Source: Deltaproteobacteria bacterium
GTDB taxonomy: Bacteria > Desulfobacterota > Desulfomonilia > Desulfomonilales > Desulfomonilaceae
Length of the DNA stretch: 64,000 bases
Assembly: GCA_016875095.1 (NCBI GenBank)
Contig: VGSG01000002.1
Coordinates: 1-64,000 of the forward strand
Direction of reading: 5' to 3'
This document shows, one piece after another, positions 10,701-33,307 of the stretch. The notes beneath the pieces are model-generated. The model had not been told where the DNA came from. It made no database searches and saw nothing but the letters and a program-made list of their open reading frames with translations. A program made the translations under genes and the position numbers. How positions within the stretch are numbered: position 1 is the stretch's first letter; each line of letters starts with the position of its first letter.

Positions 10701-12119
10701 ATGGCGCGCTCCCCACAAGAGTTGATGCGAGCAATCCCATCGGTTGACCGTGTGTTGAGTGACAAGGCTATTGCGCGGCTCCGAGCGCGATACAGCGAGG
10801 ACTTGATCAAACGCATGGTCAGGCTGGGGCTTGAGAAGCTCCGTGAGGAGCTTCGAAACGGCGCCGCGGGAAAGGCGGACTGCGCCATGAAAGCGGTTGC
10901 GGAGCGTGTGGCTCGCCTCCTTGAGGAAAGGGTAGGGCCCAGGCTGCGCACCGTAATCAATGCCACCGGCGTTATCGTACACACCAATCTGGGCCGGTCG
11001 CCGCTTTCCAAGCGGGTTGCCGACCGTATCGCAGAAATCGCCTGCTCCTATTCCAACCTGGAATACAATCTGGAAGAAGGCCGCCGAGGCGAACGCAATG
11101 CGCATTTGCGTAAGCTTATGCAGGAGCTGACCGGCTCGGAAGATGCGATTGCCGTGAACAACAACGCGGCCGCGGTGCTGTTGGCGCTGTCAAGCCTGGC
11201 CCAGGCCCGGGAAGTGGTGGTTTCCCGCGGTGAACTGATCGAGATCGGCGGATCATTCCGCATTCCGGACGTGATGGCGCGATCCGGGGCTATTCTGCGT
11301 GAAGTGGGCACTACCAATCGCACTCATCCAAGGGATTACATCAACGCGATCAACGAAAACACCGCGCTCATCCTCAAGGTCCACCCAAGCAATTACCGGA
11401 TAGAGGGCTTTACCAGAGAAGTGGAGCTGGAGGAGCTCGTCGCAATAGGCCGCGATCGAGGCGTGCCCACCATGATGGATCTGGGGAGCGGCTGCCTGGT
11501 GGATCTGTCGCCGTTTGGCCTGGAAAGGGAAACTACGGTCCAGAGAGTGATTGCCGCTGATGTGGATGTGGTCAGCTTCAGCGGCGACAAGCTCCTGGGC
11601 GGTCCGCAGGCGGGAATCCTCGCAGGCCGAGCGGAGCTGATCGAGAAGATGCGCGCCAACCCGCTCGCGAGAGCGCTCCGCATGGACAAGCTCACGCTTG
11701 CCGCGTTGGAAGCCACGCTGCTGGAATACACCAGTCCAAAAGGGCCGGTCGACGGCGTCCCGACGCTGGCCATGATCATGAAGCCTCGCGAAGAGCTTGA
11801 AGCCATCGCGGAAACCATTGCCGCAGAGCTGGAATCCGCGCTGAAAAAACGAGCCGACATTAGCATCGTGGTTGGTGTGGGCCGGGTAGGGGGTGGAGCG
11901 CTTCCTCTGGAAGATCTTCCTGGCCCGAGGGTCTCTGTTCAGCCTCGCAACGTGTCCGCAGGCCGCCTGGAACAGGCCTTGAGAGCCGGTGATCCTCCCA
12001 TGATCGTTCTGGTCAAAGACGATGCGATTCTTATTGACCCGCGAACCTTGCTGCCAGGCCAACCGGACGCGGTTCCAGCGCTTGTGAACGCGGCCGTGGA
12101 TCGAGCTGAAACCATCTGA
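10701..12119 (+). CDS. selA: L-seryl-tRNA(Sec) selenium transferase (selenocysteine synthase)
   Basis: SelA is a PLP enzyme that converts seryl-tRNA(Sec) to selenocysteinyl-tRNA(Sec) with selenophosphate. At 472 residues it is the normal length. Diagnostic stretches are VINATGVIVHTNLGRSPLS, the NNNAAAVLLAL segment, GSFRIPDVM, ILREVGTTNRT and SFSGDKLLGGPQAG, where Lys297 is the PLP-binding lysine. The ATG has GGAG about 10 bases upstream. The usual partner selB is not adjacent; a repeat, a small membrane peptide and a pseudouridine synthase follow. Its presence shows the genome can make selenocysteine, which matters for the TGA-interrupted regulator at 30231. Only one reading frame is involved and no damage is visible. 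Confidence 0.96.
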   Translation: MARSPQELMRAIPSVDRVLSDKAIARLRARYSEDLIKRMVRLGLEKLREELRNGAAGKADCAMKAVAERVARLLEERVGPRLRTVINATGVIVHTNLGRSPLSKRVADRIAEIACSYSNLEYNLEEGRRGERNAHLRKLMQELTGSEDAIAVNNNAAAVLLALSSLAQAREVVVSRGELIEIGGSFRIPDVMARSGAILREVGTTNRTHPRDYINAINENTALILKVHPSNYRIEGFTREVELEELVAIGRDRGVPTMMDLGSGCLVDLSPFGLERETTVQRVIAADVDVVSFSGDKLLGGPQAGILAGRAELIEKMRANPLARALRMDKLTLAALEATLLEYTSPKGPVDGVPTLAMIMKPREELEAIAETIAAELESALKKRADISIVVGVGRVGGGALPLEDLPGPRVSVQPRNVSAGRLEQALRAGDPPMIVLVKDDAILIDPRTLLPGQPDAVPALVNAAVDRAETI

Positions 12120-19340: not shown

Positions 19341-20156
19341 TCAATTTGGTCGATTAAATTCCATAAGTATGGCTTCCAGAACTCCTCCCCCAATGGCTCT
19401 GGCTTTCTCGGATATGGTGAAACAATGGGTTCTGTCCGCCCGCGGATCCACGTCCCCAAGCTTCATATTCCTGAACACATGCGCGCCGGGGCGTATGAGT
19501 CCTCTGAGCACCCCGTCAAGAGCGGCCTTCACCGCAAGGCCCGCGACCTCTCCCACCGTTTCTCCTTTTTCAATGGGTTCACCAATGGCGCGATCCGACA
19601 GAAATACGCCGTCTCCGGGGGATCGGAGCACTCTCCGGACACTCTCCCCCGCGATCTCTCCGGGGGCGCCGGTATCAGGCTCAGGCGGACCGTGAGATAT
19701 GACCTTTCCCAGGTTGTGGCCGCGGTTGGTCTCTATCACGTATTTAACGTCTTGCCCGGCAAAGAAGCCTGGGCCAAGGCCAATGACCAACGGAGCGTCG
19801 TCGATGGCTGTTCCGGTGTTTCTCTTGGCGAGGATGGCGTCTATGACGATGTGGGGCTGGACAATGGTCACCGCCATCTTGTCCGGATCAACGAAAACCG
19901 GAATGCGGGAGGAAGCCCAGACTCGATCGACTTCGTCGACGGACGAGATACGCACCGCGGTGATCCCTTCAACAGTCTGGGTCCCTTCGTAAACGGCTTC
20001 GCTGAAACTGACCGCGCGTCTCACAGCGAGAGGGGAAGGAATTTCCAAGAGGAGGAGGCTTCCGAATCCGGCCCGATGGAGACGGCAGGCCGTGCCGGTG
20101 GCCATTTCTCCCGCTCCTCGGATGACGATCTTCAATTGCCGGAGAGAGCAAGACAT
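19341..20156 (-). CDS. yqeB: YqeB/EF2563-type selenium-dependent molybdenum hydroxylase maturation protein
   Basis: 271 residues with the pattern of the YqeB/EF2563 family: KIVIRGAGEMATGTACRLHRAGF (Rossmann-like nucleotide-binding start), VFVDPD, DAILAKRNTGT, APLVIGLGPGFFAGQDVKYVIETNRGHNLGKVI and a C-terminal GGGVLEAI. In genomes that use selenium as a labile cofactor of molybdenum hydroxylases, yqeB accompanies yqeC and selD; its biochemical role is not settled. Here the gene follows a thioredoxin gene by 16 bases. No molybdenum hydroxylase or yqeC lies nearby. Together with selA it indicates two uses of selenium in this organism. Confidence 0.8.
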   Translation of the reverse strand: MSCSLRQLKIVIRGAGEMATGTACRLHRAGFGSLLLLEIPSPLAVRRAVSFSEAVYEGTQTVEGITAVRISSVDEVDRVWASSRIPVFVDPDKMAVTIVQPHIVIDAILAKRNTGTAIDDAPLVIGLGPGFFAGQDVKYVIETNRGHNLGKVISHGPPEPDTGAPGEIAGESVRRVLRSPGDGVFLSDRAIGEPIEKGETVGEVAGLAVKAALDGVLRGLIRPGAHVFRNMKLGDVDPRADRTHCFTISEKARAIGGGVLEAILMEFNRPN

Positions 20157-30197: not shown

Positions 30198-30198
30198 T

Positions 30199-30216
30199 AG
30201 ACTGACTAGTCAACAA
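30199..30216. promoter_or_regulatory. candidate TetR operator (FadR-like palindrome)
   Basis: The central ten bases TGACTAGTCA (30203-30212) are a perfect palindrome, located 18 bases before the start codon. The 18-base window matches the Bacillus FadR consensus TGAATGAnTAnTCATTCA well in its centre. This is the kind of site used by TetR regulators that respond to acyl-CoA. Binding is inferred. Confidence 0.55.
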
Positions 30217-30230
30217 AGGAAAAGGAAATC

Positions 30231-30824
30231 ATGGGATCGAGAGGACAAGCCACAAGGGAAAAGATCATTGGCGCGGCGCGGCATCTCTTTAAGTACCAAG
30301 GGTACAAGAACACCACTATCGATGATATATGCGAGGCTTCCCGCGTGAAGAGGGGAAACCTGTACTTCTATTTCAGGAGCAAGGAAGAGCTGGCTCTGGT
30401 CGCCATCGATGACGCCTTGAAAAGAGAGTTCCCGTTCCTCGAGAGAATCATGGCCGGAGAGTTCGACCCCCTGACAAAGATAGATCTGATGATTGACGGC
30501 ATGGTGGATTACATTATTGCTCGGGATTGCCGCGGAGGATGATTCTTCGGGAATTTCGCCCTGGAGTTGGGCGATACGCATAGAGATCTGGCTCAGGCGG
30601 CCCACCGCTTCTTCATCGAGTGGAACGGGTTGCTGAAGAGGCTTTTCGAAGAAGCAAAGAAGGTGGGCAAGCTGCGACCGGACGTGGACTGCGAAGCTGT
30701 GAGCAGACTCATCATGAGCACGGTCGAGGGAGCTATCCTGATCTGCAAGGCGTCCAAGGATCAGGAATCATTAACTAAAACCATTGACACGTTGAAATCG
30801 GTCATCAAGGGATTCAGGGTCTGA
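30231..30824 (+). CDS. TetR-family regulator, predicted selenoprotein (in-frame TGA at codon 104)
   Basis: ATG 30231 (AAAGGAAAAGG upstream) begins a TetR regulator. The helix-turn-helix is complete: AARHLFKYQGYKNTTIDDIC, ASRVKRGNLYFYFRSKEEL. At codon 104 (30540-30542) the frame meets TGA, then continues without any shift to the true stop at 30822-30824; the total, 197 residues, is a normal TetR length. Around the TGA the protein reads RDCRGG-U-FFGNFALELGDTH. Many TetR regulators carry a conserved Cys exactly here, as in the G-C-x-x-G-N-x-A-x-E pattern, so selenocysteine replacing Cys is the simplest reading; Cys100 lies four residues earlier and gives a C-x3-U pair. selA is present in the window. 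A SECIS-like hairpin follows the TGA. The downstream piece has no start or ribosome-binding site of its own. A TGC-to-TGA nonsense mutation is the main alternative. Confidence 0.8.
30556..30574 (+). promoter_or_regulatory. candidate bacterial SECIS hairpin
   Basis: TCGCCC (30556-30561) pairs perfectly with GGGCGA (30569-30574) around the 7-base loop TGGAGTT. The loop begins 19 bases after the TGA and has a G as its second base. Bacterial SECIS elements lie directly downstream of the UGA, with the apical loop about 16-37 bases away and a G among the first two loop bases; this hairpin meets those rules. Confidence 0.6.
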
Positions 30825-30852
30825 CATTTCCGGATAAATAGACTAGATAGTC
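30821..30852 (+). promoter_or_regulatory. candidate promoter and inverted repeat before the HgdB-like genes
   Basis: CTGACA (30821-30826) and TAGATA (30844-30849) are spaced 17 bases apart. The inverted repeat GACTA-GA-TAGTC (30841-30852) overlaps the -10 and shares the GACTA/TAGTC half-sites with the palindrome at 30203-30212, with a different spacing. Repression by the upstream regulator is inferred. Confidence 0.4.
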
Positions 30853-30902
30853 AGGTCAGATACGGCGAGCGTCTTCGGTTGTTCCGTAAAGGGGAGGGAT
30901 AC

Positions 30903-31976
30903 ATGAATCAAGCACAGAATCGGGCCGGCGCAGGGGTAATAGGATGGATGTGCGGGTACGTGCCGGAGGAAATCATCCTTGCAGCGGGACTTGAGTCCGT
31001 GCGTATTCGAGGCGCGGTCCCAAGTCTCAAGCAAGCGGATTCCTACCTGTTCCCCAACTTCTGCCCCTACGTGAAGAACGTTTTCGATTCAGGCTTGAGA
31101 GGCGAATATGGGAATCTCAGTGGAATCATCTTCACCAACTCTTGCGATGCCATGCGCCGGCTCAGGGACCTGTGGGATTCCCACGTGAAGACTCCTTTCT
31201 CCTTCATGTTGGAGGTTCCCAGAAACCGGGATGAGGACGCCGTAACATACTTCTCGGAGCAGTTGGCGGCTCTTCAAACGCAGTTGGAAAATTTCATCGG
31301 CGCCAAGATTTCTCGTGACTCTCTGCAAGAATCCATTCGCGTCATGAACGAGCAACGAGCGTTGATGGCCCAGCTTCTTGAGAGGCAAAAGGCAAAGACC
31401 GCAGCCTTGGAGGGCAGCGAACTCCTGGCCTTTTGCCTTGAGGCCATGACTTCTCCGAAAGAGGCCTTCACGAAGAAGCTCGAGAAAATCCTTGCTCAAT
31501 CACCATCCGTAAATTCCGGTTTGAACCAACAGCCTCGAGTGCTTGTTGTGGGGAGCGTCATGGACAGGTTGGATCTGCTGGAAAAAGTGGAGGCCGCCGG
31601 CGCATCTGTGGTGGCTTTTGATACCTGCGCGGGTTTGAGGCATTGGTCAGGGCTTGTGCAGGAAGGAGAAAATGCCGTTCATAGCCTGGCTCGAAGGTAT
31701 TTGCTCAAGCCCCCGTGCCCTAGGATGCCTGGTTTTGAGAGAAGAATCGAGCAGATAATCCAATTCGTGCGAGACTATTCAGTTGACGGAGTAATCTACA
31801 GCGCTGTTAAGTTTTGTGATTACGGGCTGTTCGAGGCGCCCGTCATTGAGGCGGAGTTACGGAATCAGCATGTTCCTTTCATGATGATTGAAAACGACTA
31901 TGTCTTCGGGGACATGGGACGCATTGGGGTCCGGCTGGAAGCATTTGTCGAGATGATGAAGGGAGATGTCGATTGA
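30903..31976 (+). CDS. 2-hydroxyacyl-CoA dehydratase / benzoyl-CoA reductase-like subunit (HgdB family)
   Basis: 357 residues of the HgdB/FldB/BcrC family, iron-sulfur proteins that use low-potential electrons to dehydrate 2-hydroxyacyl-CoAs or reduce aromatic-ring CoAs. The family start is clear: GWMCGYVPEEIILAAGL, with Cys17; Cys54 (FPNFCPYVKNVFD) and Cys81 (TNSCDAMRRL) follow at usual places, and a C-terminal Cys sits in VIYSAVKFCDYG. These cysteines are expected to bind a [4Fe-4S] or double-cubane cluster. ATG 30903 has GGGGAGGG 6 bases upstream, which rules out the longer start at 30879. It lies 78 bases after the TetR gene, and a second family member follows. The ATP-dependent activator (HgdC type) is not in the window. 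Confidence 0.9.
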   Translation: MNQAQNRAGAGVIGWMCGYVPEEIILAAGLESVRIRGAVPSLKQADSYLFPNFCPYVKNVFDSGLRGEYGNLSGIIFTNSCDAMRRLRDLWDSHVKTPFSFMLEVPRNRDEDAVTYFSEQLAALQTQLENFIGAKISRDSLQESIRVMNEQRALMAQLLERQKAKTAALEGSELLAFCLEAMTSPKEAFTKKLEKILAQSPSVNSGLNQQPRVLVVGSVMDRLDLLEKVEAAGASVVAFDTCAGLRHWSGLVQEGENAVHSLARRYLLKPPCPRMPGFERRIEQIIQFVRDYSVDGVIYSAVKFCDYGLFEAPVIEAELRNQHVPFMMIENDYVFGDMGRIGVRLEAFVEMMKGDVD

Positions 31977-32092
31977 TTCAATGCCATGTTCGAAGAGTGA
32001 TGACGTGAAATGGCCTAACAAACGGGTTACGTGCTCTATCAGTCTTTCTTGGGTACCGGGAGGAGGTTCGTCGCTTGAAGGAGGTGGCGCCA

Positions 32093-33307
32093 ATGAGAGC
32101 TTATCTTGAAAGCATTGTGGCATTCACGGAGAAAAAGTTGGAGCAAAAGCCAAGTGGCTGGCACAAGTTGATCAAGGAAATTGCCTCAACATTTAGCAGA
32201 GCATTCGACGAGAATGCCAAGGTGGTCTGGGTGTCATCCTATGCTTTCCCAATGGAGCTCTTGTGGGCGTTTGATGTGACGCCTTTTGATTTTGAACTCG
32301 CGTGCAACATCATTCCTCCCGCGGTCAGTGGAAACGGGTCCTCAATTATGGTGGCTGCCGAGAATCAAGGATATTCAAGGGATATCTGTTCGTTTTACCG
32401 GCTGGCCTTGGGAGCCCACGTCCAGGGTATGGTACCGAGGGGGGATCTATTCTTAACGTCGAGTTATTACTGCAACGGAAAAGCAAAGACAAACGAGACT
32501 GTCGCGCGTGCGCAAGAGAAAGAAAGCATCCTTTTTGATGTGCCCAACGAGATCAGCAGGTCATCAATCGAATATGTGGGTTCTCAACTAAAGGGAATTG
32601 CATCCCGCTTGGAGGCCCTCACAGGAAAACGGCTGGATACGGATAGGCTGAAGGAAACGATCCGTTGGTCCAATACGGCCGGGGCTTCATTTCGACAGGT
32701 CAACGAACTGATGAAGGCAAAGCCGAGCCCTTGGGATGGGACGAAGGCCTGTTTTCTGGGCATAGCGGGCTCGCTTTTTTGGGGGTCGGCGTTCCGCCAC
32801 GAAATCAACGTCATGCTCATCCACGAGATGGAGTCTCGGATACAAGCCGGGAAAACATTCCCGGAGACTTACAGGGTTCTCTGGTTTCCGTGGCCGCCTG
32901 TTCAGCAGACCAACATATTCGCGACATTGAAAGAACACCAGGTCAGCGTTGCGACGGCTGAAAGCGCGCGAGTCTACTGGTCGGAGATCGACGAGAGCGA
33001 TCCTTTTGAAGGCCTTGCGCTAAAAGCTCTCAACGACCCTCATGTGGGAAGCTCCCAAAGAAGAGTCAAGGCAATCGTCGAGCTGGCAAAAGATTATCAA
33101 GTTGATGGAGCGATCCATTTTTCCACTCCTGCTTGTCGCCACGAGAACGGCTCGTTCCGCCTGATCGGCGACGCTCTCAGGGACGAGGGCTTGCCTGTGG
33201 TAAACTTGGAGGCTGATATGACGGACGAGCGGAACTACTTTGCGGATAAGACGAGGACTAATCTGCTGACATTCTTTGAGATTCTGAAGACTTCAAAGAC
33301 CCGCTAG
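32093..33307 (+). CDS. second HgdB/benzoyl-CoA-reductase-like subunit
   Basis: 404 residues, a divergent member of the same family. It keeps a core of the family (WVSSYAFPMELLWAFDVTPFDFELACNIIPP, RDICSFYRLALG, DLFLTSSYYCNGKAKTNE, and a C-terminal VDGAIHFSTPACRHENGSFRLIGDALRDEGLPVVNLEADMTD), but the cysteine that precedes Y-x-P-x-E in most members is replaced here by serine (SSYAFPMEL). Cysteines at the other positions remain. AAGGAGGTG sits 6 bases before ATG 32093. The arrangement with the 357-residue protein suggests the alpha/beta pair of a dehydratase or a double-cubane cluster protein. Substrate is unknown. Confidence 0.85.
   Translation: MRAYLESIVAFTEKKLEQKPSGWHKLIKEIASTFSRAFDENAKVVWVSSYAFPMELLWAFDVTPFDFELACNIIPPAVSGNGSSIMVAAENQGYSRDICSFYRLALGAHVQGMVPRGDLFLTSSYYCNGKAKTNETVARAQEKESILFDVPNEISRSSIEYVGSQLKGIASRLEALTGKRLDTDRLKETIRWSNTAGASFRQVNELMKAKPSPWDGTKACFLGIAGSLFWGSAFRHEINVMLIHEMESRIQAGKTFPETYRVLWFPWPPVQQTNIFATLKEHQVSVATAESARVYWSEIDESDPFEGLALKALNDPHVGSSQRRVKAIVELAKDYQVDGAIHFSTPACRHENGSFRLIGDALRDEGLPVVNLEADMTDERNYFADKTRTNLLTFFEILKTSKTR

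Follow-up and report, generated by a model that had tools for sequence, protein, structure and literature searches.

Reactive cysteines are described in TetR-family regulators close to the one considered here. A NemR-based sensor depends on Cys106 of NemR to respond to hypohalous acid, and the sulfenamide proposed to form with Lys175 is disputed (PMC8748444). In the NemR homologue AltR, thiosulfinate sensing depends on the conserved Cys100 (PMC13178969). The great majority of selenoproteins whose function is known are enzymes or redox carriers. An inventory of 119 families contains no TetR protein or other DNA-binding transcription factor, its sole regulatory-labelled entry being an FmdB-family putative regulatory protein (PMC13188914). 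A 2022 selenoprotein review likewise includes no TetR, and no selenocysteine-containing transcription factor or repressor was found in the literature searched, from whose scope bioRxiv and most subscription papers were absent. The TetR family and the selenocysteine (Sec) system are each already known.

Within the window (the whole stretch of 64,000 nucleotides analysed here) lies a TetR-family gene with an in-frame TGA, which a sequence-only reading had interpreted as encoding a Sec-containing transcription factor. That interpretation is supported, and all of the tests proposed for it that were run came out favourable. Our main reading, to which we give a probability of about 0.82, is of a genuine Sec-containing TetR autorepressor that uses its Sec to sense an oxidant or electrophile and that controls genes for acyl-CoA enzymes. 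Insertion of Sec at UGA 104 is close to certain, on comparative rather than protein-level evidence; the sensing chemistry of Sec104 is inferred by homology to NemR.

A TetR-family gene with an in-frame TGA

The regulator gene (30231..30824, + strand) runs from an ATG at 30231 to a terminal TGA at 30822-30824 and encodes 197 residues. Codon 104 is a TGA (30540..30542, + strand) within the motif GUxxGNxAxE, and we propose that it is read as Sec. Pfam TetR_N matches residues 12-56 (E 1.7e-14, 53.8 bits against a cut-off of 24), and TetR_C_13 matches residues 80-186, spanning codon 104 (E 5e-20, 72.3 bits against a cut-off of 27). NCBIfam 20.0 has no matching Sec-specific TetR model; the best-scoring named regulator families, which include AcuR (NF051457), did not meet the equivalog cut-off (71.9 bits against 247).

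An AlphaFold2 model built with 14 relatives contains nine helices (mean pLDDT 90.7) and places residue 104 in the loop between helices 80-97 and 108-116. The closest solved structures in fold comparison were the TetR regulators 3qbm, 3bru and 3eup. E. coli NemR (4yze) was also matched, with a TM score of 0.79-0.82 at an identity of only ~19%.

Sec and cysteine alternate at codon 104

Homologues were drawn from 148 related genomes, 395 genomes of the phylum and all 18 genomes of the family. The codon-104 column was invariantly Cys or Sec in 14 aligned relatives (GCxxGNxAxE). TGA occupies this column in nine genes from seven genomes, the window gene included, and the remaining relatives aligned, which number dozens, carry TGC or TGT. 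The nine-gene set takes in one two-contig 6.5-Mb assembly; we take the G005 contig (6,500,104 bases) to be the Desulfomonile tiedjei chromosome.

Group I of the Sec genes consists of the window gene, L018 (65% identity), L019, L020 and L022. Group II (L037/L075, G012:C203; L038/L076, G015:C213; L133, G008:C41) is a distant second Sec-TetR set that belongs to the same bacterial family and carries the motifs GULFGNTALE and GUIFGNTALE; its members for which identity to the window protein was computed reach 32-36%. L034 (G075:C172:1702-2265), a Sec-TetR from another family of the phylum, carries the motif GUPLGNLAQELSD and an intact SECIS stem; it could reflect either a wider spread of Sec-TetR genes or a separate origin. 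A further TGA-containing TetR relative (L127, G017:C330) lacks an evident start codon, and its SECIS helix is imperfect. It may be a decaying copy and is left out of the count of nine.

In a quick maximum-likelihood tree of 40 proteins, the nine Sec proteins fell into three groups apart from one another, and the changes between Sec and Cys numbered four in all. The number of Sec origins is only approximate because the tree has open forks. The Cys gene L021 was nested inside the group I Sec clade and probably represents one reversion from Sec to Cys. In the pairs compared, non-synonymous differences were far fewer than synonymous differences on both sides of the TGA, from which we infer that purifying selection acts both 5′ and 3′ of this codon.

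Scanning the 395 phylum genomes with the pattern GG-TGA-xx-GN-x-A-x-E gave 19 matches, three of which were recognised as TetR (the window gene, G003 and G075); the others, which were not inspected individually, look like background. A viral-contig scan gave no match to the UGA plus SECIS pattern. The plasmid collection contained no relative with ≥60% identity, the five listed being 30-32% identical.

A SECIS hairpin follows the TGA and tracks Sec

Directly 3′ of the TGA, the RNA is predicted to fold into a hairpin (TCGCCC-TGGAGTT-GGGCGA, 30556-30574, + strand), with stem arms at 30556-30561 and 30569-30574 and the loop TGGAGTT. The published bSECIS model specifies an upper stem of 4-16 bp, a loop of 3-9 nt with a G at loop position 1 or 2, a distance of 16-37 nt from the UGA and an energy of at most -7.5 kcal/mol (PMC13188914). 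The hairpin meets this model, having 6 bp, a 7-nt loop (UGGAGUU), a spacing of 19 nt between the UGA and the apical loop, and an energy of -10.4 kcal/mol. When a comparable test (stem ≥5 bp) was applied to the 2145 TGA triplets of the window, 3.7% passed and 1.1% were followed by an equally stable hairpin. Rfam has no family at the hairpin, as expected for a bSECIS. The stability of the whole region is unremarkable (fold z-score -0.81), and the case for a SECIS therefore rests on position, the model criteria and comparison between genes. All five core pairs were complete in 8/8 Sec genes tested, against 2/31 Cys genes, and the nested Cys sister (L126/L021) is one of these two. The number of pairs formed differed between Sec and Cys genes (Mann-Whitney p 6.5e-5, without correction for kinship). 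In four of the nine Sec genes, both partners of one pair have switched together, from C-G to U-A, and sliding the partner by 1-3 columns lowered pairing from 94% to 26-46%. The comparison of Sec and Cys helices is weakened by the overlap of the hairpin with conserved codons (AxELGD).

These data bear on the possibility that the TGA is a real stop and the locus a pseudogene, a truncated 103-residue regulator or a sequencing error. In favour of this view, mechanical ORF calling stops at 30542. Against it stand the recurrence of this codon in nine genes from seven genomes, one of them the two-contig 6.5-Mb assembly, non-synonymous change well below synonymous change 3′ of the TGA, and the presence of the SECIS. 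We regard a real stop as all but ruled out. TGA 104 is neither chance nor a sequencing error, because TGA recurs in the same column of eight more genes from six other genomes, because the sequence 3′ of it is constrained in this way, and because only ~1% of window TGA triplets precede an equally stable SECIS-like hairpin.

The genome encodes the Sec machinery

The window itself contains selA, for L-seryl-tRNA(Sec) selenium transferase (10701..12119, + strand; TIGR00474, 594 bits against a cut-off of 268), and yqeB (19341-20156), which scores above the cut-off of an NCBIfam equivalog model. Elsewhere, the same genome encodes selB, a tRNA-Sec (C1:97089), a selD with one in-frame TGA, a known selenoprotein form (G000:C7:103502-104416), and a formate dehydrogenase with an in-frame TGA. 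selB was found above cut-off in all 18 family genomes and in G075 (19/19), and so in every genome with a Sec-TetR. Second, more divergent selB matches above cut-off are present at G005:C1:3562952-3564838 and G012:C38:821-1894.

A second alternative is that UGA 104 is decoded as another residue, by Trp insertion or near-cognate read-through. Reading of UGA as Trp does occur in some bacteria, which favours this view. Against it, every other relative examined has Cys, and none has Trp, at the aligned position, the TetR gene itself terminates with TGA, and the genome has a full Sec system together with known selenoproteins. This explanation, too, can be all but dismissed.

With these results, the foundations of the sequence-only reading can be judged. 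Its frame, with a TGA at codon 104 and continuation to 197 residues, held, supported by Pfam matches through that codon; so did its placing of the TGA on the conserved Cys of a G-C-x-x-G-N-x-A-x-E pattern, as an invariant column, and its identification of selA and a yqeB-type gene, both of which are NCBIfam equivalogs above cut-off. It had proposed looking for alternation of TGA, TGC and TGT among homologues and for selB, selC and selD in the genome; both checks were run, the alternation was observed and all three genes were found. The SECIS, which it had left unchecked, is present and tracks Sec versus Cys.

Putative operators and neighbouring genes

Two putative operators flank the regulator: TAGACTGACTAGTCA (30198..30212, + strand) in its own promoter and TAGACTAGATAGTCA (30839..30853, + strand) between the regulator and the downstream genes. 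The site TAGACTNNNNAGTCA (TAGACT-N4-AGTCA) occurs three times in the 4.7 Mb genome, and two of these occurrences flank the TetR gene. The third operator-like site (C7:77765) could not be linked to a clear target. Four relatives (L070-L073), the Cys sister included, have a GACY-N4-RGTC site 18-36 bases 5′ of the regulator and a paired second site ~630-640 bases from the gene start. Such a layout is what would be expected of an autorepressor whose control extends to the genes that follow; we consider this role likely, inferring it from the conserved paired sites without binding data.

Beyond the second site, the gene at 30906..31976 (+ strand) encodes an HGD-D family protein, a 2-hydroxyacyl-CoA dehydratase/benzoyl-CoA reductase-like subunit (Pfam HGD-D, E 3e-83). 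Its best NCBIfam match, below cut-off, is a double-cubane-cluster anaerobic reductase. This gene is a probable target of the regulator, again by inference and without binding data, and likely shares an operon with a gene for a second HGD-D family protein (32081..33307, + strand; Pfam HGD-D, E 3e-57).

Other group I regulators neighbour an enoyl-CoA hydratase gene in G015, and genes for an enoyl-CoA hydratase and a metallo-beta-lactamase-fold protein in G005 and G003, the G003 hydratase being recognised by sequence only. In G005, an iron-sulfur protein with weak likeness to QueG and reductive dehalogenases (L071:8474-9232) adjoins the Sec-TetR operator. Downstream of group II regulators lie a VTT/FAD-oxidoreductase fusion (MerA-like), an AhpD-like frame (identified by eye) and ArsS in G012, and, in G008, an unnamed protein with a VTT-like frame (by eye) after it. 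The promoter palindrome of group II differs from that of group I, being TACC-N8-GGTA in L075 and L076.

Sec104 aligns with the sensing cysteine of NemR

U104 falls in the column of NemR Cys106, and K173 in that of NemR Lys175; the E. coli NemR sequence used in this alignment was not taken from a database. Both C100 and C172, the latter adjoining the residue aligned with Lys175, are kept in 5/5 group I Sec proteins, while the Cys sister of group I has S and H at these positions. This pattern could fit a selenenylsulfide partner in group I. Both thiols are missing from the group II Sec proteins, so there is no universal partner, and direct oxidation or alkylation of the selenolate is therefore favoured, with a thiol partner optional.

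The sequence-only reading had paired C100 with U104 (C-x3-U) in a possible selenenylsulfide. This held in part: C172 is an equally conserved candidate, and neither is found in group II. Its suggestion that DNA binding would depend on redox or electrophile state is supported only by the alignment with NemR Cys106 and remains an inference by homology; its further suggestion, that DNA binding would depend on selenium supply, is plausible without experimental data.

A rival account accepts Sec insertion and denies it a sensing role: Sec would replace a structural Cys packed in the C-terminal domain, and the regulator would take its signal from an ordinary ligand, for example an acyl-CoA. Three observations favour it. 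Even distant TetR_C_13 relatives of unknown inducer keep the Cys column invariant, the neighbouring genes encode acyl-CoA enzymes, and acyl-CoA is bound by other TetR regulators, FadR among them (structures 3anp and 3ang appeared in the fold comparison). Sec is costly and hardly ever kept outside reactive sites, which counts against a structural role, as do the separation of the Sec groups on the tree, the sensor function of the Cys at the same position in the closest characterised relative (NemR), and the absence of C100 and C172 from the single Cys sister of group I. We consider the structural account unlikely and prefer a sensing Sec.

Discussion

In the model that we favour, SelB would bring Sec-tRNA to UGA 104 via the downstream hairpin, yielding a full-length dimeric regulator. 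The dimer is predicted to bind GACT-N4-AGTC operators at its own promoter and before the adjacent acyl-CoA enzyme genes and, as inferred from the paired sites, to repress both. Reaction of the Sec104 selenolate, placed in a sensor-domain loop, with an oxidant or electrophile, for instance an unsaturated acyl compound, would then release the operators, a step inferred by homology; a selenenylsulfide from Sec104 to C100 or C172 may be part of the response. The acyl-CoA gene neighbourhood makes an unsaturated, electrophilic acyl inducer reasonable, by analogy with AcuR-type regulators, and this too is inference. A weak point of the model is that group I regulators do not neighbour classical genes of oxidant defence.

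Without Sec insertion, translation would yield no more than the 103-residue N-terminal part. Because this product would lack the C-terminal dimerisation domain, a shortage of selenium could also lower repression, although this is speculative. A last alternative makes that effect the main function, with UGA 104 as a selenium-supply switch: low selenium would give a truncated, inactive regulator and derepress its targets. The UGA does come after the DNA-binding domain and ahead of most of the dimerisation domain, and truncation there would therefore yield a non-dimerising fragment. Against a dedicated switch, this property is common to any selenoprotein, the genes neighbouring group I regulators have no known selenium role, and the Cys sister keeps the same operator pair without Sec. 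We judge such a switch very improbable as the main function and retain the sensing autorepressor.

The window gene may be the first Sec-containing DNA-binding transcription factor. A bolder reading, towards which the balance tips slightly when it is taken as a whole, is that these proteins are the first class of transcription factors to use selenocysteine as the sensing residue, that the class arose more than once among NemR-like TetR regulators of anaerobic bacteria, and that gene control by it answers both to selenium-tuned electrophile or oxidant chemistry and to selenium supply. If so, the conservation of Sec in a repressor that binds DNA would take selenium use into direct control of transcription. 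It would also allow the added value of selenium for redox or electrophile sensing to be asked about in a family whose Cys version, NemR, is well studied. Gene calling with the standard code cuts such genes to a 103-residue fragment, and more of them may therefore be hidden.

Sec-TetR resembles the 119 families of prokaryotic selenoproteins in the 2026 inventory (PMC13188914) in its UGA with a bSECIS, its Cys homologues and its redox-type residue. TetR-like genes with a conserved in-frame stop codon have also been described in Methanosarcina, but there the codon is amber (TAG), the genes are archaeal and grouped with pyrrolysine candidates, and their status was stated to be unclear (PMC1914089). 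Among TetR regulators with Cys in place of Sec, 3bru from Rhodobacter sphaeroides has the residue at the Sec column (GCLVGN), and the AcuR-type regulators of acrylate utilisation also have Cys and are separated from Sec-TetR by the unmet equivalog cut-off; no inducing mechanism for the AcuR-type/3bru comparator was found in the literature searched. AltR of Pantoea ananatis, which was left out of the alignment, is likewise a TetR repressor with one conserved essential thiol and autorepression via an inverted repeat (PMC13178969), but uses Cys and has unrelated target genes. The nearest parallel is NemR, the E. coli sensor of HOCl and electrophiles via Cys106, which shares with Sec-TetR the fold, a reactive residue in the same column and a lysine, Lys175, corresponding to K173. 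NemR differs in using Cys rather than Sec, in its low overall identity and in its operator and gene neighbourhood, while the host of Sec-TetR is probably an anaerobe.
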